Positions 2,647 through 29,423 of a stretch of DNA of 64,000 nt are shown piece after piece; within the stretch, counting starts at the first letter, position 1; each line of letters starts with the position of its first letter. A model generated the notes under the pieces. That model was not told the DNA's origin and did no database searches. It saw only the letters and a program-made list of their open reading frames with translations. The stretch is taken from NCBI RefSeq assembly GCF_000003815.2, contig NC_049982.1, positions 14,161,704 through 14,225,703 on the forward strand, written 5' to 3'. Source of the DNA: Branchiostoma floridae. Lineage: Eukaryota > Chordata > Leptocardii > Amphioxiformes > Branchiostomatidae. A program made the position numbers and the translations under genes.

Positions 2647-2844
2647 CTTCAGGAGAATGTGGCAGAGAATGCAAGCCTGCCACAGCTGTCTGACGGGCTG
2701 GACTCTCTGATGGACCTGGGTGGAATCGACACAGATATTGACTGTGAGGGCTTTCTCAGTGCCTTGAAATGGTACAATGAACAGTCTGGCATTGTCTCTA
2801 CACACCTGGAGGCCACTGACACGCTGGAAGACCAAGCAATACAG
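2647..2844 (+). CDS. PPARGC1 coding exon (N-terminal acidic region)
   Basis: Acceptor tttcag, donor acag/gttagt, 66 codons, phase 0 at both ends. It encodes a Leu/Asp-rich run ending in a segment (FLSALKWYNEQSGI) that aligns with the FLGGLKW region of PGC-1alpha exon 2, which is part of the activation domain. This match fixes gene identity and strand at the 5' side. Confidence 0.9.
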
Positions 2845-5800
2845 GTTAGTAGGTTGTGTAATGTTTGCTGTCTTGTGACCAATGTAAAGGTATGTCAGCT
2901 GGGGGTCATTATATGTGTGACTGTGTGAAGAAGACTAACCAAAGTACGCAGGTAACATAATCGTCATTAGATACTGTGTAAAGGTATTTTTGTGTGTGTA
3001 TTGTACAGTCACTGATAATATGTGAAACACTTATCAACAAGACCTTTGTGTTCCATTGATGTCATTTAGCCAAGTGAAAAGGCATTATCTCTTTAATCTA
3101 CTATGTAATGGGACTGTGGGGACTATTCAGGGTATTGTCTTACCTGTGTGTCTGATAGTACTATCTGAGGTGAGACAAGGTGGTGAATGTGTTACACAAG
3201 GGATACAATGAAACTCAAGGTCATTGTTAATCCCAGACAACAAGCAATCGCCTTTTTTTTTTTATTGACAGGATAGATAATAAAGTTGTTGAGGACCATG
3301 ACAACTAAAACAGCCATGTCGTCAAGATGCTCAGGTTGCATTTTTGTGTGTGTTGGCAGGCTGGCAAGCTGGCTCCTTGCCAGAATGTTGACACTTACAC
3401 AATGTGTATTATGTACTATGTAGCCACCACAGTATGGATATGATAATGGTTTTAGTCTGTGAGATATTTCAGCGGTGACAACTTGATGTGAAATATTAGT
3501 TTTGAGACACTGTGACACCATAGGGAGTTGTTGCAGGTGCTACATTTTGCTACACATTTCTTCACTCTGCAAAGTGAATAATCTGGAACAAAACACAAGG
3601 TGCTTTTGGGTAACCACAACAAATGACAGTTTTTCTGTAAACCAGAAGAGGGAGAAGTGTAAAAATTCTTTACCGCAAGAAAGATATTAAATCTATTCAA
3701 TAATTTGAGTAAAGTAGTACTTGTAGATACAGTAGTACATCATTTTATGTGTTCAGCCATATATTTACCCATTTGCCATCTAAGCATCTACTCTCACCTC
3801 TCAAATAAACGTACCGGTACGTTTATTTTTTTCCGCCTCAAAATCCACCCGGTACGTCCTTATTTTAGACGGTACGTTTATTTTTTTTTCAAATTGGGGC
3901 TTTCTTTACTAACCAGGGACCCAAAAAATATTGAAAGTTTGGTATTTTCTGCCCATATTTCCGCGGTATTTTTGCTTAATATTCACTATTTTTCGGACGA
4001 GGCATCGCGGATTTCCCTGCCCCTAGCGCTATGACCCAAACATAACTAGGGATGCGTACCGGTACGCAGGACCAGTTCTGGACTTGCAAAAACGTTTTGG
4101 TTCAGGTCCAAAAACAGCGGAACACAAGTGATTCGGTACTGGACTCGTAAAAAAATATATCCTTTTCGTTTAAGACCATCTTTAACCTTCCAAAAATCTT
4201 GAAATGTTGCGCTGAACAAAGACGAAAACATCGAGGTCACATGCTACACACACGGTCGCTTACTTCCGTAAATTCTCTATCAAAACACAGAAATTAACCA
4301 CCAACCAAACAAATTAAAAAGTTACCAATACTTTTCCACTATTTTTCACCCGTAGTCAACTTGTTTTAATGTTCCAGCAACGAAAAAATCATTCCAAAAC
4401 AAAGCATAGCGTTCAATCGGCTCGAAAAGATCCGCCATGTTGGATTCATCAACTCACGCCGAATCTCGCGGTAATGCGCGAGAGAATCATATATTTTCTG
4501 CAGTACCCGTATATCTCGATAGGGGGCAGTGTCTATGACCTTGGTTTCTGCAACATTGAAAATAGCACAAGTGGTGAATAAGGTAATTTAAGTTGGAATG
4601 TTTCTTCAAAATGTTATTTTGTAACAATGATTATAAAATAAACTTCTTTTTTTATTTCTTCAATTTTTATTTTCAGTCATTTTTTTACTTTTATTTTAAT
4701 CTTTGTTGATGGTGTGACACTCAGATAAAGAAAATATGTGCAATAGCATGGGAATTATTCTGTTCATTATTTATACAATTAACTGATATGGTAATAAAAA
4801 ATAAAAAATAAAAAATAACTGATATGGTACTGAGTCATAAATAAATAAAAAGAGCCTACCTGCTTATCATCTTCTCTTGGACTGAAGTAGCATGGGCACA
4901 GTTTACATGTCAATTTGGTAATTTTCCGGGGGGTACTTTTATTCCAGGGGGTACTTTTATTAGATTTTGAAGATTTGTCCGGGGGGTACTTTTATTCCAG
5001 GGGGTACTTCTATTTGAGAGGTGAGAGTAATCTAATTCATGGTATTTCATGTTTCAAATTTGCGTACTATATATGCGTGATATATAATATGACAAGCTGA
5101 TGATAACGTATATGCAATTTTATCCATTGAGAAATCTGCCACTGTTATTATTAATCTTAGCCCATAATTGTAGCATTAAGGGAATACAGAAAATGATGAT
5201 AAAAGTTGTATTGAATGATGATGTAACAGCTTCAGCAAAATACTTCTAGTTTAGTGTGTATCGAAATATATATTGAATTTGTTAATGACACAATCCATTT
5301 TTCTGATAGATTACCAGAGAGATTTTATATGTCTGTCCAGCTTTGAATATTGCTGTGGAAATTGATTGCATAAACCTTTAAGTTAGCTTTCTGATATGAT
5401 TAAGCTGTACCTCCTGCACCGTTCTTTGTCTAATCATTTATTATTCATTGTGTGTTACTGTGAACCGGGCAAGTAGATATTACGCGTACACGCATGATAC
5501 TCTTAGGTTTAATGCAGGCCGTTGTTATTTGTTGAGTTATGGCATGTCTTGTACGCAAAGAGGCATCCAATTGAGGTGGCTATTCTCACCATTGGGATAT
5601 TGATAGGTAGCCTGGAAAGCAAATGCAGGTGATGTATCGCAGGAAATGGAATTGGTTTTGAAAGACCGGAGATGGAAATAATGGAACCTGCAGTTCTGCA
5701 AGAAGAGTTGTACATGTTCCTGCCTGCATGGTTGAAGTTTGTCTGTATCACTTTTATAGGTGTTGACCTTGAAAGAAAGCATACATTCAGAGGATATTGG

Positions 5801-8800
5801 ATGCACGGATTTATAACATTCATACATTGTAGTAGTCAAATTTCATCTTGCCATTGTTTTTAGCAATACCAAAAGAACTTTATTTGGAAAACCACATTGC
5901 ATGAAAGGTCAGAATGAGCAACACTGGATGTTTTAGACAAATAGTAATTACAGATACACATTTAGGAGGAGCAATAGCAGATAGGCACGTAGTTGCATTG
6001 TTCTCTGGTTTCCACTCATTGTTCTAAGTGTTTTGGCTTGTGGTTCTTCCATCATTGTCTCTGCCTCTTAGTGGTAATATAGCCAGTACTTCACCATTGC
6101 TAGTGGAAAGGATCCTGGTTGACCTGCTTTTGTAGGCTGGTAATTTTAGATCACTTCTGGAAAGAATCCCTGGCCCAGCTGGGATTGCCCAGCTGTGTTG
6201 CTATGTAGCCATTCAGCTGGTACAGAATAGAATAATGCTGCTGAAGGCATCTGAGATACATGTACAACTTACACAAGTACAGGCCATACAGTTTTAATCA
6301 CTGTGACAGAGTTGTTATCTATGTTCATGTAACTTCAGTCTGACACTCTCACTTACTTACTAGTGTAAATGTGTTGCAAAATGTAAGGTTAGGGTATTAG
6401 ACAAAGGCTAAACATTGATTTGGTGGTCTTAACAATCAAATTAATTTTTTTTGAGGGGTGTCCAGAAATTTCACGCTATATTCTATAGTATAAGTTAAAA
6501 CTAGAGTTCCACAAACACATACCTTTGCCAAATAAACCAGGTTTGTTATGTAGAATGATGTCTGTAGACAAATGCGTTACTCATTTCATTTTCTTTATAA
6601 TTAAATGCTTGTAGTTGGTTTATAAAATTTCGGCATTTATTATGCAAATTAGATCCCAATTTACAATTAATTGATATCAAATTGTATCAAGCATTACTAA
6701 AGCTATCAGCATACCAAAAATCATGATGATCCTTTGATCCATTCTTGACTTATTCTCTTTCAAAGTCTTTAAATACACCTCTTACTCTCTTCCCTCTTTC
6801 TCAGTTACATATGTGACAACTTTGATGAAAGTACTATAGTTTGACAAGTTTGACAAGTTTTGACAAGTTTTATTGCAACATGTACGACATAGCAGCTGAT
6901 AGCTGAATTGCGTCGACATTCACATACTACAAACAGCTGTAGTAAAAAAAAAACGGGCACACTATTAAAAACTTTACATAATGTCCTACAAGCAATTCTG
7001 TACTAGAATATTGTAGGGTATTCGTCTTAAAATTTATAATAAGTATAAAATATCAAGTTGCCATACAAACGCTGTATCATTACTGAGTAATAAACATATC
7101 AGAAGCGGTTTCTAATGAGTAATTACTTATTCAGTAAGTATACCAGGTATGGTATCGGTGAGTTCTTATGTCTGTTAGTTCGGCAAAATGGAATGTCCAG
7201 TTTCTCAGAACTGCGAGTGGTACGTCCCATCGTTTGCTGTCTGGATGGGGGGAGCCAGTCCCGGAACTCTGATGACCGTAGTAACGACTCCGCGAATGTA
7301 GTGCAGATACTCATCCGTCGGTCTGCTAAGGTGTTGAGGTCAAGTGAGGAGAGTGCCGAAGCATAGTCAGTATATTGAGTTCCGAGGATAATCCTGCAAG
7401 CTCTCTTTTGAATTCTCTCAAGTTTTGCTGTTTGGACCTTGGTGAGTGACGAGTGCCACGCCGGTGCCGCATACTCAAGCGCGGGTCTCACATACGACGT
7501 GTATACTGACTTAATGGGATGCAGTGGATTTATGAACTTTTCCTAATCAATTATGCAAGTTAGCTGTAAACTTGCATAATAAGTATCACATTATATAAGT
7601 CTTCATTTAGGCTATCTACATGCCGAAAATCATGACGATCCGTCAACACGTTAATATTTTCTCATTAATTATGCAAATGAGATCATCATTTGCATGATAA
7701 ATATGTATTGACATTTCTCTCTTTCTCAGTTACATATGTGACAAGTTTTAAAGCCCTATCATGGAATGTAGTGAATTTATAAAATATCCTCATTAATTAT
7801 GCAAATTAGCTGTTGATTTGCATAATTGATATCTCATTATGTAGGTCTTCACTTATGCTACCTACATACAAAAAACATGATGATCCATCAACATGTTCAT
7901 ATTTTCTCATTAATTATGCAAATGAGGTCATCATTTGCATAATTGATATCTGTCGACATTTCTCTCCTTCCCAGCTACATATGTGACAAGTTTGAAAGTC
8001 CTATCATGGAATGTAGTGGATTTATTATTTTTCCTCATTAATTATGCAAATTAGCTGCTGATTTGCATAATTAGTATACCATTATGTAAGTCATCACTCA
8101 TTCTATGTACATACCAAAAATCATGACGATCCGTCAACACGTTGTAGAGTTATTCTCATCCAAAGTTTGAAAGGAAACCGGCGCCTGCAGTTCCAAAAAA
8201 GCCGCTAGGGGGCCCAAACTCACAGCACTTACTCTCTGCCTCGAGGGCTATCTACCACTCAAAAATCATGATCACAGCATGTCCAGAACACGAGATATCA
8301 AAAATTGAGGTTCTGCTGCAGTACCTTAGCAAGCCGCTAGGGGGCCCATTATCGAACTTGACCTTCGTTTTCCCGACCCCTACCCACCTACCAAATATTA
8401 TTGGGATCCATCCAAGACTTCTTGAGTTATGCTGTTAACAGACAGACACACAGACACACAGACACACACACAGACTCACAAGCCCAAAACATAACCTTAG
8501 CCATTCTGGCAAAGGTAATTAGTAGTATGATTTATATGTGTGACAGGCCTAACAGGTTTTGGTGTATATTTACATCTCAGCACCTTATACGGTGCATAAA
8601 TTGCCTTGTTAAGTATATCCAAGTTTGGGAACTGACCCCGACCAGCTATGCACTACTATATAAAAGATCAAAGTAAATCTGGTAATGAGGTATTTCACCT
8701 CATCATATAAGTGCATGCTCTTCCTGGAGCTGCAGTATGTGAACAAAATAGGGCAAATGAAAGTTCAGCTCTGCTGTAGAAGATTTACTGTCTCTGTCAG

Positions 8801-11800
8801 TGTTTTAAGACATTGTCACTTGACTTGCTCTGCATGTGTTGTAATTTATATTCAGCTCCAAGGTCAAGTTGATGTACCTGATCATCTCTCTCTTGGCTAC
8901 AAAGTAATTCTTGCAAGCTTTCAAAACTTTGACGTCAAATCCGATGTCACTGTACCTGAAATCATCTTTTTGTTATGGTATCGCCACTGATAACTTGTTC
9001 AACATATGAAGCCATGTGGCAAAAATAGGAAACCGTGTGCCTACCTTACTGTATTTCAAACCATCAAGCAGGAGAGAATATGATGGCAGGGTGATTTTCC
9101 TTCATACATGTGTTCAAGTTCAAAGTTAGTACAGAAATTGGCGCAATATTTTTTTTTTTAACTTAACTGTCTATGATAGGAAATTCTCTGTCCTCAGGCT
9201 GCTGAAATTTGCCTGGCCTTTTATCATTCTGTCAAAGCACTAGCTTGGTACATGTAACATTGGTCTTGAATCAGAAAATCCAATACAAGTTCTTAAGAGC
9301 AACGAATGACTGTAACTGTAGTAGTCCGTCAATCAATAGATTCTGTGTGATATAAATTATTTCAGCCTTGGAGATGTTACAAGGCCATGTGGGCTGTAGA
9401 ATTAATGTTGCATGTCTTTGACATTCATGGATGTTTTTTCAATAGTCTCCGAATTTCAAGCCCGATTCCTTCAAAGCCCAGTACGGTCATGGTTGAGTTT
9501 GAAGTCTCTTAATGTGTTACATGATAAATGATCACATCACCTTGCAGATGGCTCTCAGTCTGACCGTCTCCATCTCACTGATTGGATTTTGTGTTTATTG
9601 TAAATGAAGGTTACAACAGTGGCGGCTGAAGTCCCCCATGCATAAGTCGTGTAATAGTGTTTGTGACTGCAATGAAGTAAGATTATCCTCTGATCATCTG
9701 GCAAGCCTTATTGTGCCCCATGTAAAGGGGCCATAATAATAGCTGTAATCAGTGTTAGGTTTTTATTAGAGCCGTACTGGAAAGTTTCTCGTAATAACCT
9801 AACTCAGGGAGAACACTGCATAGTTGTCATACACATGTACGGTTTTATTTTATTTAAGTTATAGAAACTGTAATAAAGACCACTGGGTTTCAGCCAAAGG
9901 TCAATTTAAGACACAATGGCCTTTTTTATTTCTTTATTCATTTTCTTTACAACACAATGAGTCGAGTAACAGAAGAGTAAAAGTTGCTTTATTGCCAATT
10001 GCAGAGCAGGTTAACAGTGGGTAAGTTAAATAAGGAATGTGACTAGACTTGTAGTTAAAGTTATTAAAGTTGTGCAAGCACTGCACGGTATAGAGTGGTT
10101 CTTGCGCAAACGTTGGAAATTTCAACTAGTATGTGTTGGCAACAAATATTGAAAATACTGCAGAAAACATTGATCGTTTTCAGCCTAAAATGTTTTTAGT
10201 GGGAGAGGACATTATCTGGTAGTGGGGTGTGCTACCACCCAATGTGTGAGAACTCCCCAAGGACATTACAATCTGATTGGATTGCATCCATTAGTGATAA
10301 ATCTGAGAGCTGATCATCAGTCAGCCTGTGTTGGGAGTTATGCTTGGCTGGACATGCTGCCTAATCCTACAACAGATTGAACTTGGCCTCTCTCTGTCAC
10401 AAGACTAGAAAGTAAAGGAACTGCAATATTTTACAGGGGAGTGGTCAAGTTAACATATATGTACATTGAGTTGATAGGCTTTTGATACACAAATTATTTT
10501 TCACAAGTTTTAAGGTAACCTTCAAAATATGTATTTGGTAATACAAACAATTCTTTTTATTATGCATAGCGTGTCATCATGAGAGAAGAAAAACATTCTT
10601 AAATATCCTTCAAATTGTCTTATCTATTATTGATAACTTACTTCACAATGTGTAACCATCACATCTTCTATAGTTACCCACACTCAGAAGTAAAGTTCAA
10701 GATGTGCAAAAAGTAAAACTTAGATGTGTGAAATGCAGACTTCTTAAGCCTGTTTTTCTTCTGGCTAGGTGTTATAAGCAATGTAAGGTGACCTTTGTTC
10801 CCCCAGCCTGGTGGTGGCTACCTCACCCATTCAGTTGAAGTGACTTGTATTCATCAGTGACACATTCCTCGAGCTGTACATTAGTCTTCCCCAAGCTCTC
10901 TAACATGCCACAAAAAGGTCGCACGTGCAAGATTGCAATTAGCCCATACCTGTCCAGTCCAGTATTTCCATGTTAAGTAGTTAGATTGTGTTGTTGACCT
11001 TCTGGTGGCATAATTACCGCAGCGATCCCAGCTACTGAATTTGCTCTCGGTTTTGCATACTAAACAGGTCTGATGACCTAACGATAATGAAGGGCATATT
11101 CTATACAGAGTATAATGTAATCTATCATTTTCCTCTGGGGAAAAGGCTGGATTTGGATAGTACAGTACTTCATAGGAAAGGTAATCAAATGGGGGTCAGG
11201 TTAGGAAGTTAGGCAAGTATTCAAACAAGCTAACCATCTAAATTTTTAGCATTGCAAATTAACACTGTTGAGATGTCTACTCCTTTGAAGGCCAAGCAAA
11301 ACTGCATGTTGCAGAGATCTGGTAGAGATCTGCATGCAGTCTGCTATAGGTGACATACGTGTATTCTGTCACCTCTAGAGTGCTAAATCTAAATTGCATC
11401 ATTGTCATACTTGGTACCACACTGCATAAAACACCTGGTCTGTAGTCCAGCTGTTGAAAAAAAAGAAGGGTTTTCAAAACTGATCAATATGGAGAAGTGT
11501 GTGCATGTATCATATTTTTTTTGTATGTGTGTGTGTGTGTGCGTGTTTGTGATAGCTTGTGTGCTGCCGTGTACCACACTTTTCTTCCCTATAGGTAGAT
11601 TTGGTTCTTTAACATGTTCAAAGTACATTTTTTACTGTCCCAAGTGTAATCAATGTATTGTCCTGTTTCACAAATGTCATTTTCATATCCGTGTTTATAT
11701 CTTTCTTTCATCTAGGTACCTTGTTGTTCACAGGAAACTTTGGATGCTGAAAATGAAGCAGGACTGCTGGCCATCCTTAATGAGTCCTTTGACAGCATGG

Positions 11801-14800
11801 ACTCCCCCCTGGGGATTGTTGGACTGGACCAGCTTGGTCAGAGTGATGGAGAGCTGTCCTCCCCTGACAGCACAACAGGACCCACCAGGAGGGATGACAG
11901 GGAGACGTCACTGGTGAGAAAATAAGTACAAGTTTGGTGACTAATAGACCCCTTTCCAAATCCTGGCATATTAGTTGAAAACAAGAAATTTTTATTGTCC
12001 CACTCTCATTTTTGTTCAATGCACTGGAGAGGAGTCTGATGTCTTTTGATCTGCGTATGAATGTCTTGCCTGAAGTTGCCAAACTTTTATTATAACATGT
12101 GCACAGTTGATTTTTACTAATAGTAATAGTTGTTTAGTTTTATTTTTTAGTGTCACGTTTTGTTGCATATTTTAGACCTGATGTGCAAGTTTAAGTTTTT
12201 TGCTCCTGCCCTAAGGTGAATATCATATCTGCAAATCGTGGTGCCAAATACTCTTTGCTATTGATCTGTTCCATTCATTTTGCATTTACGGAAGACAGCA
12301 TGGTGAAATGATCTATGTTAACAGCTTTCTGTTGCTTCTCGCTCAGCTTAAAAAATTGCTGCTGACGCCTCCTAACACGCCGATGGGATACAGCAGGGAA
12401 CCCATCAGGCTGGAAGATGTATTGCTTCACAGGAAAAACCAGGTAAGGGACAAACCACAAAACCTAATGGAAGGGGTTTATGGGAGCACACCCTTTGATT
12501 TCTTTTATTGTTTCTGCATCATGTAGTTTGTGGTCTGTCCCTAATGGGTTTGTGCCCAGCTTCAGGGGGTTAGCTTGAAAGGATGTGGGATAAGCTGGAC
12601 AGCTTGTATATAGAAATATATAGTTATATACTAATATAGCATCATGGCCCACTCCAGCATTTATCTACATTGCGAAAATGGCCTGCATCCTTGAAAACCG
12701 ATTGCATCTTTTATTATACGTCATTTAGCATTGAAGTGAATGCTGCTACTATAACGTCATCATCAAAGCTGATCATCAACACAGCTGCTGAATTTGATCT
12801 TCTTAACCAACTGCATGTTTTAGTATAGTGCACAACCTTTGTGTTCTTATTGCTATAGTGCAAAGTTGGACTTTGTCGTTTCCTAGCTGGCCAAGTTGGC
12901 GTCCAGTTCGAAGACGGAAACTGCCTTCCCGTTCAACACCCCGGCCAACAGTTTGAGTCCTCGGACCAACGACTCGGCGTCTGACTCCACCCCCAGCTCC
13001 CCATGTAAGCACTCCGAGGGTGTCAGTACCAGTGTACATGAGCATGAGAATGGCCATAAGCACCCTGAGCTGGAGAAGCTCTTGTTGAATGGCGAGGCTG
13101 TGCTGGAGGCCCCCCTGCCTCGCCGAAGACGAGCGTCAGGCCATGAAATAGGTGAGTCACAAACCACAGTGTCATGCCCTTGTCACATGATGTTCACCAC
13201 GCATGCATGTGCAAATCCCAGGCAGTGCCAAGAAACTTATACCAATATGTCCCCCTCTGGTTGATGCGACGCAATGAGAAATGTATGCCTGTCTGTTTGA
13301 TGGGTTTTTCGGTCAGCGTGTCTTATGGACCATCCATATCCCTGCCCCTCTAAAGTCCTTGGAGCCAGCTGAGGCAATCCTGGTGTTAGAAGGAAGATTA
13401 GTGCCTAATGGAATAGTGGAGATCAATACCTATGTTTTGTGCAGTGCAAGACTTGGTTAATGCCAGGGGTAGAATCTGCTATAATGTAACATCACTGATC
13501 TTAGATGTATATGGACTCATCTTTCAAGCCAGCTGGCTGATCATTGGCCCGTCTTGTTTAAAGTCAAGGCCAAAGTAATTCTGGGTTCCTGTAATGTTTT
13601 TGGATTTTAATGAGAACACCCTACATGATGGGATTGTCATCATTTGTTGTAATGAACTGGGCAGCAGATATTACAAATTTTTGTTACGTGGTTTCACATG
13701 CTCGGCACCAAGCTCGCTCAGATAAAGGTTTATGTACCAAGCTGTGAAAGGGTGATGAATTAATTATTGTGACCTTGAATCCGTGTGGTTGCCAAATCTG
13801 CAGTCTAAAATCTGACCAGAGTTGTTCATAATCCTGGATGCAGCGGGTCAGTACACAGGTAATGCTGCCCGACTGTGTTTTAATGTGTTTGAAGGGATCT
13901 GTAGGAAATAGAGCCTCAAATATCATGCAGTACTCTCTATCACACAGCCTCGTATTTCACAAATAGGAAGTGAAGCGTCGAAACCATTTTTCATTGGGTG
14001 CAACTTCTGTCTGCTACATTGCAGTTGCATGTTTATGTAGTCATATGTATGCATATACACAATTTCAAAAGGATATTATGTATACAAAAAGATGTTGATA
14101 ATGATAACCACAAATTCAAAGTAAGATTTTCCTGGATATAGAAGTCTATACGTTCATGGCTCAGATACATCACCAATAGGGAGGAACCTAACAATTTTAG
14201 ACTCTAGCCTCACATATAGTAACCTACTAGACAGGACGGTCACAGGATCCATGCTCCAGGGAGCGATAAAATGAGGGCATTTCCCACCAGACTACAGAGC
14301 CATTTATAGCTCCTATGATGTCAGAGCAGCCAGGCTGAGGACCAGTAGGAGGCTGCAACGTGGTGCAGCAGGGTAACATTGACGTCACAGGCAGGATCAG
14401 TTTCCCGGCTCACATCATGCCTCACTCTTCTATGTAGGTGTAGTGATAAATCAGTTCCAGGAGCAACATCTCAAGTTAGCATCCCTCCTATTTTAGAAGA
14501 GACTCTGAGGATGATCAGATATAGGACCAGTGTAGTAAGATAATTTGATGATAGTGGTAACTCCTGACCGTCAGTACCAACCATGAAAGAAGGGTCACAT
14601 TGCTCTCACTGGTTTCACTGCATTGCTACAGCTGACTGACACTGATGCATTAACATGCCTACAGCTTATGTTATAGTACTCAGTGGAGAAGGAATTCTCT
14701 ACATCTCCTGATCTTTGTGGACTGTAAAGGGGAAATGCTCTCCAAGCAGAGGTTGATTGGGAAAATTGTGACCTTTTTGTTACATGCATTTTTTTGGTCA

Positions 14801-17800
14801 GCCAACCCCACTAACACTGACAGGTCATGATTTTCCCCATCATCCTCCGCTTGCAGAGTAAAAGAGGAAGTGTTCATTGGTGGTTTTCATCATAACCTCT
14901 TCACAGTGAATTTAAAACCACCACAAAAATGTTTGTCCTGTCTACTGAATACTGACACCATATATGTAGCTACATACATTGTGGTTCCGTTTTTTATAGT
15001 AAAGCTACTCTCTAAGCAGAGATTTTGAGCCAGGGTAGGGCCTGTGAAGCAATAAAGGCAGGGTTATTCAACACTGAGGGCAGTTTGCAGGGAGACAACC
15101 TCTCATGGCTTGAGATGGAGGCACTGTTGTTGAAATGGTGGTTGATGGCACTCAGGGAGGGGTACTGACTTTAGGATGATAGCCCTGCCTTGGTGAATTC
15201 TGTGGCAGTAGTGAAAGAAATCGAGGACACTACAAAACCAACTCTGTGTTTAAAAGTAGCTTGCTAGAATTTTTGTCCGAGGAAAATGGCCTTGATGACA
15301 GGCAAATGATGACCCATTTACATGAAGATTTACCCTGGTGTGTCTCCTGGACTGGTACATGTCACATCTGTAACTGACACCAACAGCCATGTCAGTTGGG
15401 AGGCAGATATGAAATTCTATAAATGTCATCGTCATGGCCAGCTATGCTTGTTCAAAAATTATTCGCATAGCTATAATATAACATCTACTGTCATGCAATA
15501 GTCAAACGTACAAGTAGCCGGAAGAATAACTAAAATAAGAAATCTTCAGATTTTCTGGATGCCTGGAAGCTAGCTTTTGTAGTAGTATGACTATGTCATT
15601 GTTATATAGTAAGATAGTAAGATAGATATATGTCCTTGAATGTGATCTAGTTTAGCTTGTATTACATAAGCATGCTTGTTTCCAAGGAAAGAAATACATT
15701 TTGTACATGTAGTATGTGTGAGACATCTGAGATAAAATTTTGTTAACCTTTGTGAAAGCTATACATCAATATGCAACGTTACATGTAGGTTGCCAGAGAG
15801 AATGTGTAGCTGATAGGCTGGCAGATTGTTGGCCTCATCAAATCATGACATGGAATGTGGCCCATAGTGTACCCTTTACAACATTGTAGTAGTCCAATAC
15901 GAGCACCATGGCCAAGACAGTACAGATTAGTCTCTTCTCAGCAACAATTCAACCTGATGCACCATTCTCCCCATTATGTTTCTAGCAGGAATTGATGTAG
16001 GAAAGTCCATGAAGGCATTTCACAGTGGGTAGTATGGTCTAGTTCAAATCTGTGTGCTCACTGATAATAGAATTTGTCCTGCAGTATTGGTAATGTATTG
16101 TTGAAAGTATTGATGATAGTAATTATGGGAAGTTTTGTGATTATAGGTAATGTGATTTGTGATTGCAGGTAATATAATAAATGGTGATCTGCACTACATG
16201 TAGTTAACCTTCAGCTATAATGTTGGCATGACGGCATAGTTTTCATAACCATAACCATATCCTCTTCATCCCTTGTGAGACATAAGGCAAAGAGTTTTCA
16301 TGCTGTTATATGTATGTATGCTAAATGCTGTTCAATTTGGTACCAACTGGCCCAGAATGTTACAGTATCAACATGGTCAGATGTCAATGGTTCATCTTGT
16401 CCGGAAATGTTTGATTATGTTAGGACTTGAGTTAATGGATTGTGCTTGCTATGTCCTGGGAAGATTATTTTCAGTGCTGGTACTGTTTGTGTAATCAAGA
16501 AAAGCTCACATAGATAGGTAAGCCAGCTAAAGTGGCTTCAGCATGCTTGGCTTCCTGTCACGTCTATGATGAGTATGGCTAATCCTTTAAGTATGGGAAA
16601 TATATTTGGGGAAGACTGGAAGAAATTTGTAATGATCAGGCAACACTGGTTCTGACTGGATTTTATTAAGACATGTTCTATCTTAAGACACATTTTAACA
16701 ATTTAAGAACTGTAGATTTCCAGGTCTTTCCTACAATTATGATGTTGTTTAACGTTAAGTCATGATATAGATTAATGTCCACATGAAATCTAGTACGAAT
16801 CAAATCCTGTTTTGTACCTGAAAAATGGTAACACAATCTTTGATAGCGTTTTCTCACTCTACAGTAGTAGTGCTTTAACAAAAACACCAATATTACTTTG
16901 TACTCACAATACAGTTTTCTGGTTTTTATCTCACATATTCAGACTTTCATCCATCCCTGATGACAGATATTTTAGGTGAGCCAAGTCTCACCATTTGCAT
17001 GCTAGCCTCTCTAAGAGTACATATGTATGCCTCCCTGATTTGCAGTGCTCTCATGATGAGAACATACTCCTGGGTCTATTTTCCTGGAGCTGCAAGCTTT
17101 GATAAGGAAATGGTTGGCCAAATTAAGCCGTCATGCATCAGGGTTGCCAGCCAAATGGCCCTGAGAAATGGAGAATGATCTGCCTTGGGAGACAGACTCG
17201 TACATTTACATCAAAGCATTTTAATCAGCTGGCTACAGTCTGTAATCCTCTCTCTATATCAGTCAGCAGGAACTCAGCTTCAGCATCTATCACCATGGTA
17301 ATGTCTGCACTTGCAACCGAAAGGTTTCTTCATGTGTAATGAGTTCCTTTTGGCATGATGTTTCTTGACTCCTCATCCTGATTGTACTCGGTACCTGACA
17401 TTTCCGAGGTATTTTAAATTTGGCGTTGAAATAATTCTGTAGTACAGCAGTCAAACAAGTAGCAGTCATCCAAAAACTGTGGAAAAAAAACAACAACACA
17501 AGACTTTCAGTTATCAAAGGATGAGATTTTCTTTTTCTGTAGTTGTTCCCACCAGGATCTGATTTTCCCTTGTCTCAAACATGGCCCCTAAACATCTTGA
17601 TGAAATACCATCTGTGTTTAGAATTTCTTGGCACTACCTGTGTTTTTGATGGCTAATTAAATGACTGGGTGGGTAGAACTAACATCTGGATAATTACATC
17701 TGATGATTCATTAGATCGTTTCTATTATGAAACAATCATTTTGAATGAATTAGACAAATTTACAGAATATTATAAGGCAAAATAACTTTACTTTGTCATT

Positions 17801-19812
17801 CATATTCTGCCACTGTTGTGATATATACTGTGATTCTGTAATTTTGAATTCATCCATGACATGTGTGTATAATGTGCCTTTTAGTTACCAATTTACAGTT
17901 CTTGCCATGAAAGCTTAAACAAGTATGATGTATAGTCAATGTTGTGTTATGTATAACCTATCTGCAAATTTATCATCTGAGAGGAAGTGGACGTCCATGC
18001 TCTTATTTGCCTTTCCTGCATGTTACATGTCTAGTTCTCAATAAGTACTGTACGGATTGAGTTTGGACTAAGCAATTTTATGAAATGTATTGCATTCAAG
18101 CTGTTCAATATCAGAATGATTTTTCCAAACCCTAAAACTTCCGAGGAGAAATTACCCACAAGGCTAGCATACAGATGATACAGTAAAATGCCTATTGTGC
18201 ATTTTTATTGTGATAAATGTAGAAACAACTTATTGAAGTACAAATTACATTATTTTCCTTTGTCATGAAATCTGTATATCACTATATGTTCATGTTCATT
18301 ACATCATCTTCATATTTCTTTTCTGTATTCCCACCCCCTCTTTCTGTGTGTTTGTCGTTCGTCTGTGAAGATAGGCTGTCTAAATTTTCATTGCTCTCCC
18401 TCACATGTTAACATTGACAGAAGATGTGTAAAATTCAAAAGGCAGCATGACAGACTGGCTTGCTACACGCTGAATGCCAAATGGAATCTTTGCTGCTTTC
18501 TTGAACCCTAACACTTGGGAATGATCGATTTGACATTCTAGGTGGTTACCAGCTTTCCGAACCCATTTTCAAAGATATAGGGAACTGCAAGAAGCAAATC
18601 TCAAAGTTTTGGAGACAATACTAATACCTTAGGGTGAACATAACTGTGTGGTTCTGTGCATGTATTTGTAACTGTGGTTTGCGTATGGTGCAGTGTGTAG
18701 TACATGTCTGCTGTGTTCTGTATATGCAGGTATCGAGGCCACTGACGTCACCAACCTGCTGGAGCAGTTCGAAGAGAAGGCAGAAGGTACATCTACCAGA
18801 GAAGGATTTATTATTCCATTACGTCATTATTCACACATAAAGACTTTCCTGGCCCGTCAGTAGGACATTTGCAGCCTTATCATGACTTGCCAAGAATCGA
18901 TTCCTGCTTGTGTACACTTGTAATTGCAGTCCTGAGCAGGCCAAGAGTGCCTCCGCTATAGAACAAAATGTAGCTCTGAACAATTTCCAACAACACTGCA
19001 GACAGCGCATTTTAAGAAATAGAAAAAAAAGTACATCAGTTTGAACATCAGTTTGCAAGATTGCAATAATATTTCGAAGGGAGTATCTGTACTGCTGAAA
19101 GATCAATTGCTGTCTGCACTTGATTGTAAGGAAATGTGCTGGACATTCCACTGAGATGTAACATACATTGTCCAGAGTGCAAATCCCTAAAGAACCCCTA
19201 CATGTAGTTACTCCCTCATGCTGACCTAAGCCACCACCACGTGGCAGAGAGGAGTCTTAATGCAGCGAGTGATTCATGCTAGTGCCTTAATGGAAGTGTG
19301 ATGTTGATCTCTCCTCTAGGTCCACCAAAGAAAGTGAACGGAAGGATGCCATACCTCAGACCTAACCTCCAGGCAAGGTGAGTTTGGCATCCATGATGGA
19401 AACAATTCTTCTGTCTAAAGGCACTGGATGTGGTATGTAAGAGGCTTTCTCCATGACTGTAAGGTTATCTACGCTCACGGATATGTGTTCTGGTATCAGG
19501 AGTGCACCGTTCACCTCAGCAACATGTCTCACAGTTTCGTCTGAACACAGGCATCAATTTCTAATGATTAAGCCTTTTTATGATCTATGAGTGTGACTGT
19601 GTTCTTATTACACAAATGTAGCACCAGTTTCCTCAGTCCACATCTTACAGTCCTTCCATATCCTACTGTTACATTTGTACATGTTCATTGTGGTGATCTG
19701 TTGCATTTTGTGTTCACAGTTCAAAGCTGGCTGCCCTTGTGACTGCCAATGGGATGTCCCTGGATAAATCCAGTAAGTGGCAACTGCCAATGATTCAACT
19801 TTGTTGAGATGG

Positions 19813-19846
<34 letters not shown>

Positions 19847-22800
19847 AAATGGATATGTGTATGTGTGTCTGTGTGTCCATTGACAACATGTGGTACATGG
19901 CACACTGGTATTGAAGTAGGATGATATGGGCTTCATACCATTGGAATGTAATTCCATTCAGACATGTTCTTAAGTTTATCAACTACAATAGTATTACTCA
20001 ATATAGTCACTGGTAAGTTTTCACTGGTACATATGTGCCCAGTTTATGATGGAGAATCTAAATCAAGAAGAAGATAAAGTAGAGTTTGGAATGATTCAAC
20101 TTATGATACCAGTAGACAAAAGCATATAAGGAATAACATTTAACCTCCATGTATGTTTAATGTTCCCAGGGAGAACAACTGACCGTTTGAGGGCTTTAAT
20201 CAGCAGTACAAGGAAAGGAGCCATTCTTACCGATCCACTGCCGAAAAAGACTAGGAATCACCAGTCTTCCGCAAAGTCTTCCAGGGGGAAGTCTACAGAC
20301 CATCTCAAGAACCCAAAATCTCCCAAGTCCATCAAGTCCAAAGGCAAGAAGGTCGTCAGTAAGAAGAGGAGGACTTCATGTGACTCTCAAAAGAGCCGCA
20401 GTGATGACTCGGGGACGGACAGCCGGTCCAGTGACAGCCTCCTGCAGCTGTCCGCCTCCAGCGACCTGAAAAATGGCGACAGCGCCCTCTTCCTGGATCA
20501 CGACTACTGCCACTCGTACCTGGTCCAGCAGGTGCAAGGGGACACGAGATGCCGATGTAGACACCGCTCACAACCCGAGCAGTCCAGTAGCAAGTCTGAT
20601 GTCACTGGAGACACCAACACAGCGTCTGAAGGCCAGTCCTTGTTGCAAGACATGTGTGTCCCCATCGCAGATTGTAAGCTGGAGAATAGCACTGAAGGAG
20701 AAGACCTTCTGTCCCTACCGGTCAACGGAAAAAAATCAGATACCCAGATAACAGACCAGGAAGCCAATGAATTAGAAACAACATCCCAAGTGGAGAAAGA
20801 CACCAAGCAATCTTTAGGTGAAGCAAAGCCTGATGCAGAAAAAACTCAGCAAGAGCTAGAAGCAGAAATGGAGGAAGGGGAGCTCCCAGCATCGGATGAG
20901 GAGCCTGGCTTCTTCTCCAAGCTTCCACCTTACATAAGCAGTGGTAAGATCATGCCCACTCCTACGGCCAGCCGGGAGAACTCTCGACCCTCTTCACCTG
21001 TGGAGGAACAGCCGTCGGCTGCAGCCTCAATGGAGCAGGAAGAGGATGGCAGCTTTTTCTCACGACTACCCGGCTACATGGAAAGTGGCAAAGTGTTCAT
21101 TCCTCCTGAAGCAAATAAAGAAAACTCTAAAGCTGACAGCTTACCGCGTGAGTCAGACATGGACATGAGTGAGGAGGAAGATGATGATGCAGAGCACTAC
21201 TCACGTCTTCCAGAGTATTATCAACCTACAACTGTGAAAAGTAGGACTTGTTCTCCATCTTCAGATCGTGAAGAAAACAGGAGACGGAAAAGTTCAACAG
21301 ACAGAATGAGAAACTGTAGGACTAAGGATGTTCTGAAGGAAAATTCAAAGCATCGGTCCAGGTCTCGCTCTCGATCACATTCTCACTCTAGGTCACATTC
21401 TAGATCTCATTCCAGATCGTCTAGAAGATCAAGGACTAGGTCCCATTCAAGGTCACGCTCTCGGTCAAGGTCACCGTATTGGTCGCGTTCACACCCCAGA
21501 CATTCCAGCAGGCTGCGCCGTAGCAAGCGGTCTTCACAGGACGAACGTGAATACCTGCGACAGGAACAACTGTGGAGACAACGGGAGCAAGAGATGAAAC
21601 TGGAAGAGAAGAAAAAGAAAATTGTAAGTGTTCATATTACTTTCTTATTCTCGTATGGTGGGAATGTCCTCCAAAACTAATGACTCGTTCAATCATTGTG
21701 CAAGAAAGACCGACTGCAGCTGTAAGATGTGTAATTAGAGCCTCTCAGGAATCCCCTCTTACCTTTCTTACTAACACACAGCATATTTTCACCACACCAT
21801 GGCGCCTGTGGTTTGTTTAAAAAGAGAGCAATATATATCATGTGTACCAACTGTCGCAACATTAACATACACATATCTATAACATGCACATGTATATAAT
21901 TATAGCAAGACGTAACGAAAACAAGTTGCGTGTATGATTAGCTGCATATGTCATAATGTATTAGACAGGGGTATTTGAGTCTACATTATGTGGACTGTGC
22001 TGAAGCAGAGCGTTTGTAAGATGTTTGACATGGCGTGTTTGTGCTGTCAGGAGGAGAGACGTGTGGTGTACGTGGGGAAGATCCGGGTAGGAACCACCAA
22101 AGGGGAACTTCGCAGGCGTTTCCAAAGGTTTGGGCCGATCGAAGAAGTCAGTGTTCACTTCAGGGATGCAGGGTGAGTAGGCCTAGTGATGTGTCATGTT
22201 TTTACTGAGCCCATATTAATTGTTATTTCATGAGCGATCAATGTTCCAAAATTTAATGATAATTCACTTCATAAATATTTGATGTGCTCTTCAATAGCTA
22301 GTACATAAGTATGTCAAATTAGAGGGTTAAGTATCTTGATGAATTGATAGATACCTTGCTGGTACTATCTTTGTACTGCCAATTATCACACAAGATTTAT
22401 GTGATGTTCTACATGAAATTATTTTTCTTACAGTACAATTTTTTAATGAAAATCATTGCGTGCTTCCATGTGGACAGGAGGCAATTTGAAAGTAGAACAC
22501 TTAATGACAGAGGAATTTGCTGTTGGTTCATTGCAGGGACAACTATGGCTTTGTTACCTACAAGTACACCTGTGATGCATTTGCTGCAATAGAAGGTACA
22601 TAGCTTTATATTTCTGTCTGTAGTTTTTATCATTCCACCTGGCCTCTGCAGCTGTTACATTGTTCCAAATGTATATTGGAATTTGTCTGCAATGGATGTT
22701 TATTTCACATGCAAGATTTGTTCCAAGCAAGATTTGTAGTATTTTGGCATACTTGACTAGTCAAATGTATCACAACTAACAAATCACTTCCATTAAACAG

Positions 22801-23205
22801 AGGGAAATCAGGACCTGGGTCCCCGTGAGCCTGTGTATGACCTGTGCTTCGGAGGCCGGAGGCAGTTCTGTCAAACTGACTATGCTGATTTAGGTAGGTC
22901 CATGTTTGCATCATTGTGTTCTTTAAGGGTTGTATTTGTGAATCCATTATCTACTTACCTTTACCCGCATACCTCCCTAGTGCTTCCTACCTAATCCATG
23001 ATTTACAATCTTGAAAATGTCAATATTGTAATGTTAGCCAAAATGTCACTTTTCATTAATTTGTCTCATCTTTACAGACTCCTACCATGGTTCCACGACT
23101 ACGGGGAGGCAAGGTGGTCGTAGCAGTGGTGGTAAATTCGACGCAATGGACTACGGAGAACTACTGCGCCAAGCACAGAAGAAATCCTCCCGGGGCAAAA
23201 GATGA
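2647..23205 (+). CDS. PGC-1 family transcriptional coactivator (PPARGC1 orthologue), 5'-incomplete
   Basis: Coding exons seen: 2647-2844, 11716-11913, 12347-12442, 12887-13151, 18730-18786, 19320-19377, 19720-19772, 20170-21623, 22051-22172, 22537-22595, 22801-22893 and 23078-23205. They sum to 2781 nt (926 residues plus TGA) with consistent phases and GT-AG borders. Numbering from the first visible residue, there is an acidic N-terminal activation region with LLAIL (about 83-87), LKKLL (133-137), LEKLL (226-230), a DHDYC motif (from 418) that in the family binds HCF-1, three FFS(K/R)LPxY motifs, an RS-rich segment (about 700-765), a charged helix and a C-terminal RRM (about 797-875). Vertebrate PGC-1 proteins are nuclear coactivators of nuclear receptors and NRF1, driving mitochondrial biogenesis. 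The domain order and the RRM/C-terminal tail match PGC-1alpha closely. The length exceeds PGC-1alpha (about 800). The initiator exon is missing, as noted upstream. Confidence 0.95.
3789..5029. mobile_element. Non-autonomous DNA transposon with perfect 19-bp TIRs
   Basis: The termini 3789-3807 (tactctcacctctcaaata) and 5011-5029 are exact inverse complements, starting with TA as would fit a TA target duplication. Just inside each end, GGTAC-(g/t)-TTTATT motifs are repeated (left about 3815-3880, right about 4930-5008). A 26-bp perfect palindrome sits at 3803-3828 and a 16-bp one at 4053-4068. I see no transposase reading frame, so the element is non-autonomous or decayed. Superfamily is uncertain; the TA flank suggests Tc1/mariner-like mobilisation. 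Confidence 0.75.
6838..7514 (-). mobile_element. 5'-truncated CR1-like LINE fragment
   Basis: The minus-strand frame 7491-7123 encodes 122 residues typical of the C-terminal end of CR1/Jockey-group reverse transcriptase proteins (PALEYAAPAWHSSLTKVQ, IQKRACRIILG, LADRRM). It ends in a stop and a short 3' UTR with AATAAA, then a tail of short tandem repeats (aacttgtca units, about 6838-6875), as CR1-like LINEs have. The flanks on both sides are pieces of the octamer repeat, so this is a nested insertion. The 5' part, including the RT catalytic core, is absent. Confidence 0.8.
8441..8478. repeat. CACAGA microsatellite
   Basis: Short imperfect (acacag)n tract at the end of the interspersed repeat, as many such elements show at their 3' end. 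Confidence 0.8.
11523..11550. repeat. TG microsatellite
   Basis: Imperfect (tg)n run just upstream of the 11716 exon of PPARGC1. Confidence 0.85.
11716..11913 (+). CDS. PPARGC1 coding exon (LLAIL activation motif)
   Basis: 198 nt, phase 0 to 0, donor ctg/gtgaga. It encodes ENEAGLLAILNES, equivalent to the ENEANLLAVL helix of PGC-1alpha (the L1 activation motif). The upstream acceptor tctag at 11715 has a good pyrimidine tract; a second in-frame acceptor (cacag) lies 18 nt further at 11733, so the exon could start at 11734 instead, dropping six residues. Confidence 0.9.
12347..12442 (+). CDS. PPARGC1 coding exon (LKKLL nuclear-receptor box)
   Basis: 96 nt, phase 0 to 0, between gctcag and gtaagg. 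The exon opens with LKKLLLTPPNTP, matching the LLKKLLLAPANT segment of PGC-1alpha, the main nuclear-receptor-binding LXXLL box. Near-identity over this short motif is strong evidence of orthology. Confidence 0.93.
12887..13151 (+). CDS. PPARGC1 coding exon with second LXXLL box
   Basis: 265 nt, phase 0 to 1, acceptor tcctag, donor g/gtgagt. Mostly Ser/Pro/Asn-rich. An LEKLL motif lies at 13070-13084, in the place of the LLKYL box of vertebrate PGC-1alpha, followed by a basic PRRRRAS segment that could serve as a nuclear localisation signal or phosphosite. Confidence 0.85.
13152..18729 (+). other. PPARGC1 intron, no recognised content
   Basis: A 5.6-kb intron between the LEKLL exon and the run of small exons. 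Stops are frequent in all frames and I recognise no repeat family or conserved exon. Confidence 0.7.
18730..18786 (+). CDS. PPARGC1 small coding exon
   Basis: 57 nt, phase 1 to 1, acceptor tgcag, donor gtacat. It encodes GIEATDVTNLLEQFEEKAE, an acidic short helix. The exon is a multiple of three with matching phases, so it could be skipped without changing the frame. Identity as an exon rests on phase agreement with both neighbours and good splice sites. Confidence 0.75.
19320..19377 (+). CDS. PPARGC1 small coding exon
   Basis: 58 nt, phase 1 to 2, acceptor cctctag, donor gtgagt. It encodes PPKKVNGRMPYLRPNLQA, a basic/proline stretch. I do not recognise a motif; the assignment rests on splice signals and frame continuity. 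Confidence 0.75.
19720..19772 (+). CDS. PPARGC1 small coding exon
   Basis: 53 nt, phase 2 to 1, acceptor gttcacag, donor gtaagt. It encodes SKLAALVTANGMSLDKS. Exons of 57, 58 and 53 nt follow one another here, a run of unusually short exons before the large one. Confidence 0.75.
19813..19870. repeat. TA/TG compound microsatellite
   Basis: (ta)n followed by (tg)n and diverged tg repeats, shortly after the 53-nt exon of PPARGC1. It produces a spurious His/Thr-rich open frame on the minus strand. Confidence 0.85.
20170..21623 (+). CDS. PPARGC1 large central exon (DHDYC, repeated FFSxLPxY, RS domain)
   Basis: 1454 nt, phase 1 to 0, acceptor ttcccag, donor att/gtaagt. In order: basic Lys/Ser-rich segment, DHDYC at 20496-20510 (the HCF-1 binding motif conserved in PGC-1alpha and PGC-1beta), long acidic region, three spaced FFS(K/R)LPxY motifs (20910, 21054, 21195), an RS-dipeptide domain at about 21350-21500, and a charged EREYLRQEQLWRQ-type helix. 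Vertebrate PGC-1alpha has one FSKLPMFINSG motif, so the three copies are a lineage feature. It corresponds to the large exon 8 of mammalian PPARGC1A. Confidence 0.93.
22051..22172 (+). CDS. PPARGC1 exon: first half of RRM
   Basis: 122 nt, phase 0 to 2. It begins EERRVVYVGKIRVGTT, near-identical to the EERRVIYVGKI start of the PGC-1alpha RRM (RNP2 motif VYVGKI). Acceptor tgtcag, donor g/gtgagt. Confidence 0.95.
22537..22595 (+). CDS. PPARGC1 exon: RRM RNP1
   Basis: 59 nt, phase 2 to 1, acceptor attgcag, donor gtaca. It encodes DNYGFVTYKYTCDAFAAIE, matching DSYGFITYRYTCDAFAALE of PGC-1alpha (RNP1). This is the most conserved run in the gene. Confidence 0.95.
22801..22893 (+). CDS. PPARGC1 exon: end of RRM
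   Basis: 93 nt, phase 1 to 1. It encodes a short linker and VYDLCFGGRRQFCQTDYADL, aligned with FELYFCGRKQFFKSNYADL of PGC-1alpha, the last strand of the RRM and its C-terminal extension. Donor g/gtaggt. Confidence 0.95.
   Translation, partial: REIRTWVPVSLCMTCASEAGGSSVKLTMLI
23078..23205 (+). CDS. PPARGC1 terminal coding exon
   Basis: Acceptor tttacag; 128 nt ending with TGA at 23203-23205. It encodes a Gly/Ser-rich stretch and then KFDAMDYGELLRQAQKKSSR, which aligns with the KYDSLDFDSLLKEAQRSLRR C terminus of PGC-1alpha. This confirms that the full 3' end of the gene is present. Confidence 0.95.
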
Positions 23206-26751: not shown

Positions 26752-29423
26752 CTGCAATGAAGTGCATGGTGTTAATTGTATTGGACCCAGGTGCTGTGTC
26801 AGGCGAGAACTATTTAGAATGTCGAGTCATTCTGGTAAAATCCTGGGGACAAGTTACAGAAAATCAAGAAGTTTTAGCCAGCTAGTTGTCACTAGTGTAC
26901 AAATTGAGAATGCCATGATTGTCATAAAATCTATCAAAATTAATCTCCAAGCAGATCCTACAATGGCATAAGATAGTACCAAACTGGCCAGGAGATAGTC
27001 AGAGGTGTACATTTGCCCCGGTAGCAAAACACACTCCTAAGCCAGCTTCACTCCTCTGCCAGCTTTAGATACTATCTTATGCTACCGTAGGATCTGCTTG
27101 GAGATTAATCAAAATGGGATCAACTTTTTTTCACATGCATCAGATACATGGTGAAAAGGATGTTACCCACATCTTATGGCTCTAATAACTGTTTTTTTTC
27201 CACCATGTTAACTTGAGGAGAGTTTGATATACCAATTGGCAACCATGAACAAGTAGTGCTGCTGACCTTGACTGCTTGCGTTACTGTCGCCATCAGAGAA
27301 GCTCAGAGACCTAGCGATGGGTGTGGGCTGACCGTAGCGGCGGCTGTAGCCTGGCACTAATGGGGATGCATTCTACCAGGGGAATGAGAGTCAGTGAGAA
27401 TTGTGAGAAAGTTGCCCAGTGACTTCTCCCACATTTTGAGTAAGGAATTATATTTTTTTTAAGGATGAAATTTCCAATAGTGATTTCTGATTAACTACTT
27501 AACCTTTATATGTTCATGTACTAGATGCAGCAAGTTGAAGCAAAGTCTGTAGTGTTGAATAAGGTAATGCATTGCAAAGTGAGGATTTTGTGGCTCTTGG
27601 TGCATTCTGGTTCCAATCTACAGATCTTGGTTGAAATGTCTTAGATCCTATATATATTGGTCAGTATAATGCCATACCTGTGATTTTTCCTGCTTGGGAG
27701 TCTGCAGTGCCCCCTGTTGAGTCAGGACCCTGGTCTGCAGCTGAGCGCTGGGATGGACAGGGGAGAAGGCAGAGCTGTACTCCCCCACGGTGGGCAGTAC
27801 AGAGACAGGACTGAGGGTGTGGGGCAGGGACAGAGAGGTGGGGGTAGGGCTCGGGTACTGAAAGGGTGCTGCTGTCTTCTGCGTGCACTCCAGCTCCCTC
27901 TGGTAGGCGTGGCAGGCTATGATGTTCTCGATAGCCCGGACTATGTCTCCAGAACAGCGATCTAGAAGTGCAGTGTTCATGCAATGAGAAGAGAGAAGAC
28001 CTGATTGTCAATGCCTAATATACCAAAAAATTCCTTGACAAATGGCAATTTAAAGCTTTGCAGGGAAAAGGAAGCAATGAAAGAAGAAAGAAGTGCCTTA
28101 CCTTCCATTTTCCTTTGTTTGATAGTGCAACATGTACAAAGAGATGTACATAAGCTAGTCAGTCATGAGTGAGAAGAAGTCAAGCCAGTTCATGAAGTGT
28201 GAACATGAAAGTAAACAGGAAAAGTTTACATAATGAATATCAAGTTTTGATGTATGAGCCTTTCAAGCATGGATGTGTCACAATGACATACCTAATATAA
28301 TCTGCAGCACGTGAGGTCGGTGTTCGGGGAAGATCTTACACAGCAGGGCCAGGTGGTTTGGGGCGAGATGTGGCGAGTAAGGCGACATGGGTGCCTGGTT
28401 AGCGTAGTATGCGTTGGTGATCTGGTGCAGGTTTGCCACGGGGCTGCCCATGGCTGCGATGGGGCTTCCCAGGGGGCCCTGCAGGGGGCTGGGCATGTAG
28501 TTGGACATCAGTGGCATTTGATTGACAGGTGTCAGTTGTTGTGGAAGGGGCCTGGGTGCAACTGGGGACTGTTCCATCTTGAGTATGGGGGTGGGCTGGG
28601 TTGCCAGGATTGGAGGGGAAATGCAGTCAGGCGTGGCTGAAGAGGAGTACGGGTGCATGCGCCGGGTTTCTGTAGGAAATGAACAAACTTTAGATAAGCT
28701 CCTAAGTGTGGCTCTAAGTAAGATACTTCTGCTCAATGCCAGCACAACAATCTAGAAACACAAGAAGCTATATTGCAGTACTAAATAGACTTCAGCTGAC
28801 TTTTGTCTTGTCACTGAAATTGAATAAGCTGTAAAGCTGACATTCTTGGCTGCAAAGTCCTCTATGTTTTTAGTCCCCCCAGTTATGAAATACTTGGTAT
28901 GTAATTTTTGCTGACCTGTGTAATTATCAGGACTAACACTGCTGCAGCTTCTACTGGCCGGGCGGCTGCCTCCCCTGGAAGCACGGGAGCCAGGGCGAGA
29001 TGCGGACCGAGATGACGACCGTGAAGCAGCGCGGGAGGACGAACGAGACCCACCGCGGGACTTGGGAAGCTCCATGCCCTGCATGGGGGAGGGGGTGCTC
29101 TGTCTGCTCTTGTCTTCAGCGTCTTGTGCACGACGCAGTGCAACCTGGGCCGCCATGACACGTCTGCGCTCACTGTGAACACGTGCAAGATACAGGAGGT
29201 CACAACTCATAAAGGAAGATGCATTTGCATGTCACATCAGCCATTCTTTCACTGGAAATTCAAATGGTACTCACACAATCAGGTAGCATTTTGGGCATTC
29301 ACAGTCCCTCCACTGGCACTTCTTCTTGTGGCCCTTCAGGAGTGCAGAAACACCATGGTTCCTGCAGCGGGCACACATCGGCGGCCGACAGGCTATTGTC
29401 TTGAAGGTCAAGGGTGCCTCCAT
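26345..29423 (-). CDS. DMRT family transcription factor (DM domain plus DMA motif)
   Basis: Exons in transcript order: 29423-29275, 29172-28916, 28669-28292, 27961-27678, 27372-27267 and 26751-26345. They sum to 1581 nt (526 residues plus TGA), with consistent phases. Residues 17-46 hold all eight DM zinc ligands (CxxC, H23, H32, C36, C41, C43, C46), followed by [15 protein letters not shown]. An RS-rich linker (about 85-120) and a Pro/Met-rich region follow. The DMA motif ([17 protein letters not shown] joined to [15 protein letters not shown]) is split by an intron. DM proteins bind DNA through the minor groove and act in sex determination and neural patterning; a DMA motif marks the DMRT3/DMRTA/dmrt93B group. 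The DM domain is divergent (MCARC for the usual KCARC), so the subfamily is unresolved. The start is the first ATG in the DM exon, so 5' UTR exons must lie upstream. Confidence 0.93.
26940..27109. mobile_element. MITE-like inverted repeat in a DMRT intron
   Basis: The left arm at about 26940-26977 (taatctccaagcagatccta and following gcataagatagta) is repeated inverted at about 27071-27109 with two or three mismatches. About 90 bp separate the arms. It is typical of a miniature inverted-repeat element of about 170 bp, in the intron between the last two coding exons. Confidence 0.8.
27267..27372 (-). CDS. DMRT small exon
   Basis: 106 nt, phase 0 to 1. It encodes [18 protein letters not shown] and a serine-rich end. 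No motif recognised; supported by phase agreement and splice sites (ctggtag, g/gtcagc). Confidence 0.8.
27678..27961 (-). CDS. DMRT exon: second half of DMA and Pro-rich linker
   Basis: 284 nt, phase 1 to 0. It begins [18 protein letters not shown], matching the G-D-V-L-R-A-V-E core of DMA motifs, then a proline/serine-rich linker. Acceptor cttctag, donor cag/gtatgg. Confidence 0.92.
28292..28669 (-). CDS. DMRT exon: Pro/Met-rich region and first half of DMA
   Basis: 378 nt, phase 1 to 1. Proline-, methionine- and asparagine-rich low-complexity sequence, ending in [21 protein letters not shown], the first helix of the DMA (CUE-like) motif. Acceptor cctacag, donor g/gtatgt. Confidence 0.9.
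28916..29172 (-). CDS. DMRT exon: DM recognition tail and RS-rich linker
   Basis: 257 nt, entering at phase 2 and ending at phase 1. It completes the DM recognition helix ([17 protein letters not shown]) and continues into a Ser/Arg-rich stretch of about 35 residues ([10 protein letters not shown]-type), unusual in DMRT proteins. Acceptor ttcacag, donor g/gtcagc. Confidence 0.9.

Follow-up and report, generated by a model that had tools for sequence, protein, structure and literature searches.

A putative PGC-1/Spargel orthologue with a motif in three copies, two of which appear to stem from an old tandem duplication

The metabolic coactivator PGC-1 acts as a central switch for mitochondrial gene expression. 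Vertebrate PGC-1alpha is taken here to contain a single copy of a short motif, which in the human protein (PPARGC1A) presumably reads FSKLPMFINSG and is situated around residue 500, in the MEF2C stretch and upstream of the MED1 stretch. This presumed human sequence is the one used in the comparisons below. The passages of a 2026 review that deal with PGC-1alpha interactions map MED1 to residues 551/565-677 and MEF2C to residues 403-570 of the human protein, describe a role of DHDY in HCF-1 binding and call PGC-1alpha intrinsically disordered; these passages assign no partner to the motif (PMC13282225). The RS region of human PGC-1alpha binds RNA and NXF1 (PMC10485026). Proteins with several PY motifs each are known among the adaptors of Nedd4, namely Ndfip1/2 and the alpha-arrestins, and PMC5892558 describes the Ndfips as membrane proteins and the alpha-arrestins as acting at the membrane.

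The window, meaning the whole 64-kb stretch of Branchiostoma floridae DNA that was analysed, contains a plus-strand gene whose assignment as a PGC-1/Spargel orthologue is supported by its predicted product (Table 1). The traced exons form an unbroken frame of 926 codons ending with a stop codon at 23203-23205, and every traced junction is GT/AG; the 5' end was not found in the exon tracing within the window. The earlier note had assigned the gene to PGC-1, and the assignment is borne out by the arrangement of the protein, where an NR box, DHDY, an RS region, an RRM and a C-terminal helix of the CBP80-binding type all follow one another in order. DHDY, the motif, the RS region, the RRM and the CBP80-binding motif presumably come in the same order in human PGC-1alpha. 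The locus represents an existing type of coactivator, PGC-1, with a real and old motif duplication and a third motif copy of uncertain origin.

The N-terminal NR box is an LxxLL sequence of the LLKKLL type, SLLKKLLLTPPNTP, and PGC-1alpha peptides (E 0.023 and 0.061) were its sole two matches in the PDB with E up to 10. The RRM matches Pfam RRM_1 (E 2.8e-8) and is 48% identical to the RRM of Drosophila Spargel (dPGC-1) as printed in PMC10468312, the comparison with Spargel being by RRM sequence alone. RRM proteins alone are found among the best 60 of its 142 PDB matches, with Msx2-interacting protein at the top (E 5.7e-6), while the NCBIfam models were matched solely below their cut-offs. The C-terminal helix, YGELLRQAQ, can be compared with the CBP80-binding helix FDSLLKEAQ, and the sole PDB match of the C-terminus with E up to 10 was the PGC-1beta peptide 6d0y, whose E of 0.38 is weak alone. 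A second LxxLL, LEKLL, is encoded at 13070-13084 of the window (residue 226) and may correspond to a further PGC-1alpha nuclear-receptor box. Searches with the exon 8 protein gave no relatives in prokaryote contigs (42 pattern stretches) or viral contigs (five), and an alignment of the window RRM with the Drosophila Spargel RRM likewise gave none in prokaryote (74 stretches) and viral contigs (55). Since these collections are prokaryote and viral, the misses carry no information on animals.

Table 1. Positions in the window of the predicted PGC-1/Spargel gene and of the motifs and blocks discussed in the text.
Feature	Position	Strand	Basis or remark
Putative PGC-1/Spargel orthologue	2647..23205	+	12 coding exons; traced without 5' end
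Exons 1-4	2647-2844, 11716-11913, 12347-12442, 12887-13151	+	splice sites, phase
Exons 5-7	18730-18786, 19320-19377, 19720-19772	+	splice sites, phase
Exon 8	20170-21623	+	splice sites, phase
Exons 9-12	22051-22172, 22537-22595, 22801-22893, 23078-23205	+	splice sites, phase
DHDY, HCF-1-binding type motif (DHxY) of PGC-1	20496..20507	+	sequence pattern
First 32-codon block of the duplication, EEPGFFSKLP...RENSRPS	20898..20993	+	codon comparison
Motif copy 1, FFSKLPPYISSGK	20910..20948	+	translation
Second 32-codon block of the duplication, EDGSFFSRLP...KENSKAD	21042..21137	+	codon comparison
Motif copy 2, FFSRLPGYMESGK	21054..21092	+	translation
Motif copy 3, HYSRLPEYYQPTT, begins HYSRLPEYY; diverged, without SGK end	21195..21233	+	translation
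RRM and C-terminal CBP80-binding-type helix	22051..23205	+	encoded by exons 9-12

All three motif copies are encoded within the single exon 8 (1454 nt) with no intron between them; DHDY lies upstream of the copies, and the RS repeats are found downstream of them in the same exon, ahead of the RRM. The triplicate motif described in the earlier note is present in one open frame, and its copies start 144 and 141 nt apart, corresponding to 48 and 47 codons. The motif pattern was set after the copies had been seen; written as [FYHW][ST][KR]LPx[YF] it has three sites and no fourth in a six-frame scan of the window, and three occurrences of [FY]S[KR]LPxY never arose when the 926 traced residues were shuffled 20,000 times at constant composition (mean 0.0001). 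The residues S, L, P and Y are identical in all three copies, and the consensus can be written acidic-x(1-3)-[FY]S[KR]LPxY. An acidic run had been claimed ahead of each copy. It is evident for copies 1 and 3 (7/16 and 10/16 Asp/Glu), but modest for copy 2 (5/16).

The copies had also been suggested to result from intragenic tandem duplication. This holds for copies 1 and 2, whose linkers are more similar than shuffles, but is not clearly shown for copy 3 when the flanks are considered. The 48-residue units of copies 1 and 2 are identical at 16 of 48 positions, a score that none of 10,000 shuffles attained, and when the 12 motif residues were left out the flank score was matched by 10 of 10,000. 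Over the 20 residues C-terminal of the motif the ungapped score was reached in 2/10,000 shuffles, and the gapped score of the post-motif residues was equalled in 0/5,000. The residues N-terminal of the motif are unlike each other (6637/10,000 shuffles as high), and the duplicated unit thus spans the motif and the linker that follows, FFS[KR]LPxY..SGK[IV]..P..A..[RK]ENS. When the protein was compared with itself (30-residue stretches, offsets 20 to 399), copy 1 against copy 2 gave the best score, 84, and the RS repeats gave 72. The protein comparisons thus show a true tandem duplication behind copies 1 and 2.

The two blocks agree at 18, 22 and 10 of the 32 first, second and third codon positions, respectively, and the same codon is used for seven of 15 identical residues, with 6.0 expected from the codon usage of the exon. 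By the method of Nei-Gojobori the pS is 0.89, which is saturated (841/1000 codon-order shuffles as low), while the constraint on copy 2 is read solely from this codon comparison, with a pN of 0.36 (0/1000 codon-order shuffles as low) over 32 codons of one species and with limits picked after the alignment. As the silent sites are saturated and the amino-acid sites are not, we infer that the duplication is old and that replacement changes have been restrained in both copies. Such restraint is evidence of function obtained from one species by itself. The motif repeat was missing from the output of two DNA repeat searches, which consisted of RS codons and one short intron repeat downstream of the exon; this miss fits the age of the repeat, which survives at the protein level.

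Compared with the presumed human segment, copy 1 agrees at 8/11 motif residues and 5/14 upstream residues (189/10,000 shuffles as high), copy 2 at 6/11 and 0/14, and copy 3 at 3/11 and 2/14. Copy 1 is the best match and likely corresponds to the one motif of the human protein. The human protein differs from that of the window in presumably having one motif with LPMF against three with LPxY, and the linker downstream of the presumed human motif is unlike that of copy 1 (2/21).

The motif segment between DHDY and the RS domain is apparently disordered. AlphaFold2 predicted an unfolded chain for a 199-residue stretch containing the copies, with a mean pLDDT of 52.3 and no residue reaching 70 or above, values that are weak as they come from a single sequence, and Pfam gave no family with E up to 1 in exon 8. 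A short invariant core that follows acidic residues in a disordered chain has the structure expected of a linear docking motif, and its repetition at intervals of about 48 residues has that expected of multivalency. The reading that we consider reasonably probable is that of a PGC-1 orthologue with a repeated linear docking motif, copy 1 being the ancestral one, in a multivalent disordered segment between DHDY and the RS domain. An ancestral single motif, presumably copy 1, would have been duplicated inside the exon together with around 20 residues of trailing linker to give copy 2, and both copies would have been retained since then. The core, consisting of an aromatic residue, Ser, a basic residue, Leu, Pro, any residue and an aromatic residue, would fit one pocket of a partner in transcription or RNA processing, and its repetition along a flexible chain, with linkers of about 48 residues, could give higher avidity or room for more partners. 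The array is most likely a multivalent docking site; the docking module and the altered partner stoichiometry proposed in the earlier note are inferences.

No partner of the motif was found in the literature searches or in the passages on PGC-1 covered. Copy 1 gave no match in the PDB set, and a profile of the three copies matched a single chain there at chance level, Glypican-3 (E 2.2). The string FSKLP led to no PGC-1 paper as judged by title, and none of six longer pieces taken from the motifs of the window and of the human protein occurred in the literature searched. Among the matches listed for PGC-1/PPARGC1, amphioxus, spargel, lancelet, cephalochordate, invertebrates and RRM there was no paper on the motif. 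Its constrained repetition here marks the motif that lies between DHDY and RS as functional, with S, [KR], L, P, x and Y as the key residues, and the three-copy segment could serve directly as a multivalent bait in a search for its partner.

A rather unlikely alternative is that the triple LPxY binds a protein with several WW domains, for example a ubiquitin ligase of the Nedd4 family or a coactivator of the YAP type, the repeats supplying the multivalency that suits tandem WW domains, and that the presumed vertebrate LPMF is a weakened form. LPxY, which the earlier note does not mention, is read in all three copies, and neither LPxY nor PPxY is found elsewhere in the traced protein; three LPxY occurred in 0/20,000 shuffles and three [LP]PxY in 8/20,000, counts that are not independent of the duplication. 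The core also lies in a stretch modelled as unfolded, as a PY ligand should, although the low-confidence model is weak evidence for disorder. However, LPxY is embedded in a longer shared core, with [FY]S[KR] before it and in copies 1 and 2 SGK after it, which is unneeded for WW binding and sets the protein apart from the Nedd4 PY adaptors. The presumed human motif has no Tyr, and the common ancestral function was therefore probably another than WW binding. The protein of the window should moreover be a nuclear coactivator, unlike the membrane-associated adaptors. WW domains of Nedd4 ligases do accept LPxY, but this motif is rarer than PPxY among the interactors of the family, 15.7% against 33.3% (PMC8509885). 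Ndfip and other Nedd4 activators are described as characteristically having multiple PY motifs (PMC5892558). The covered part of the 2026 review on PGC-1alpha is silent on Nedd4 and WW domains (PMC13282225). The titles and abstract beginnings of the matches listed for PGC-1 with Nedd4, WW or PY reported no such interaction. That pre-vertebrate PGC-1 was multivalent, with three LPxY tying it to a WW partner, and that vertebrates cut the array down to one Phe-bearing motif, appears quite improbable. If true, the WW partner would be a Nedd4-type ligase setting the turnover of PGC-1 or a YAP-type coactivator joining growth and mitochondrial programmes, and the reduction to one Phe-bearing motif would have changed the control of vertebrate PGC-1.

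The segments might also be clusters of Phe, Tyr and Leu in an acidic setting that make loose contact with Mediator or p300, the copy number setting the strength and no specific pocket being involved. The Asp/Glu content ahead of the copies, the aromatic residues that open each motif and the unfolded model all agree with this. Acidic activation domains have a loose grammar, and the strict S-[KR]-LP-x-Y core with its basic residue and proline is unlike them; the human MED1 region furthermore lies in the RS part, downstream of the presumed place of the motif. We regard such activation patches as unlikely. For the multivalent docking site, the origin of copy 3 must be considered as well, as this copy may be an eroded third duplicate or an independently gained, convergent motif. 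Its core shares five of eight residues with that of copy 2, with a pN of 0.25 over eight codons (0/1000 codon shuffles as low), and the pN against copy 1 is 0.43 (15/1000). The ungapped score of the whole unit was reached in 16/10,000 shuffles against copy 1 and 2/10,000 against copy 2, and the gapped score, core included, in 0/5000 with either copy. The flanks behave differently from the whole unit, since without gaps 3640/10,000 (copy 1) and 1439/10,000 (copy 2) shuffles scored as high, while the gapped comparison gave 134/5000 and 906/5000 downstream of the motif and 3366/5000 and 1751/5000 upstream of it. Flanks that are not clearly above shuffles are what would be seen if copy 3 were a functionless likeness, due to chance or convergence, in a low-complexity acidic and Ser-rich segment. 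The closeness of its core to copy 2, the rare whole-unit scores and the lack of three pattern matches in any of the 20,000 shuffles make this very improbable.

An exitron in exon 8 that would remove motif copies was rejected for now, as the internal donors are weaker than the real ones. Weak internal sites are found at 20944 and 21148 (donors) and at 21264 (acceptor). Joining 20944 to 21264 would remove 321 nt in frame and drop copies 2 and 3, while joining 21148 to 21264 would remove 117 nt in frame and drop copy 3; many other in-frame pairs of donors and acceptors exist in the exon. Seven internal donors are above the listing threshold, the best scoring 6.3, and the gene's 11 true donors all score at least 7.3 with a matrix that was derived from these 11 and hence favours them. 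Compared with synonymous shuffles the exon has no donors of at least 8 (0.25 expected) and 13 acceptors of at least 3 (10.4 expected).

Exon 8 encodes two KEN tripeptides, at residues 625-627 and 698-700, each as KENSK. One is part of the duplicated linker and the other is located just ahead of the RS repeats; at least two KEN tripeptides occurred in 291/20,000 shuffles of the traced protein. Ahead of copy 1 the sequence EEGEL is encoded at 20871-20885 of the window. It resembles what we take to be short acidic GE[LI] motifs binding ARS2, and would as such fit a partner in the cap-binding complex.

Two further features of the window are found on the minus strand. The open reading frame at 7123-7542 had no Pfam match above the cut-off, and by eye it presumably resembles the final part of a reverse transcriptase of the LINE type. 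An exon at 29277-29420 encodes a DM (DMRT-type) DNA-binding domain (Pfam DM, E 6.6e-18) and probably continues into 28752-29231, placing a predicted DMRT gene downstream of PGC-1 on the opposite strand.
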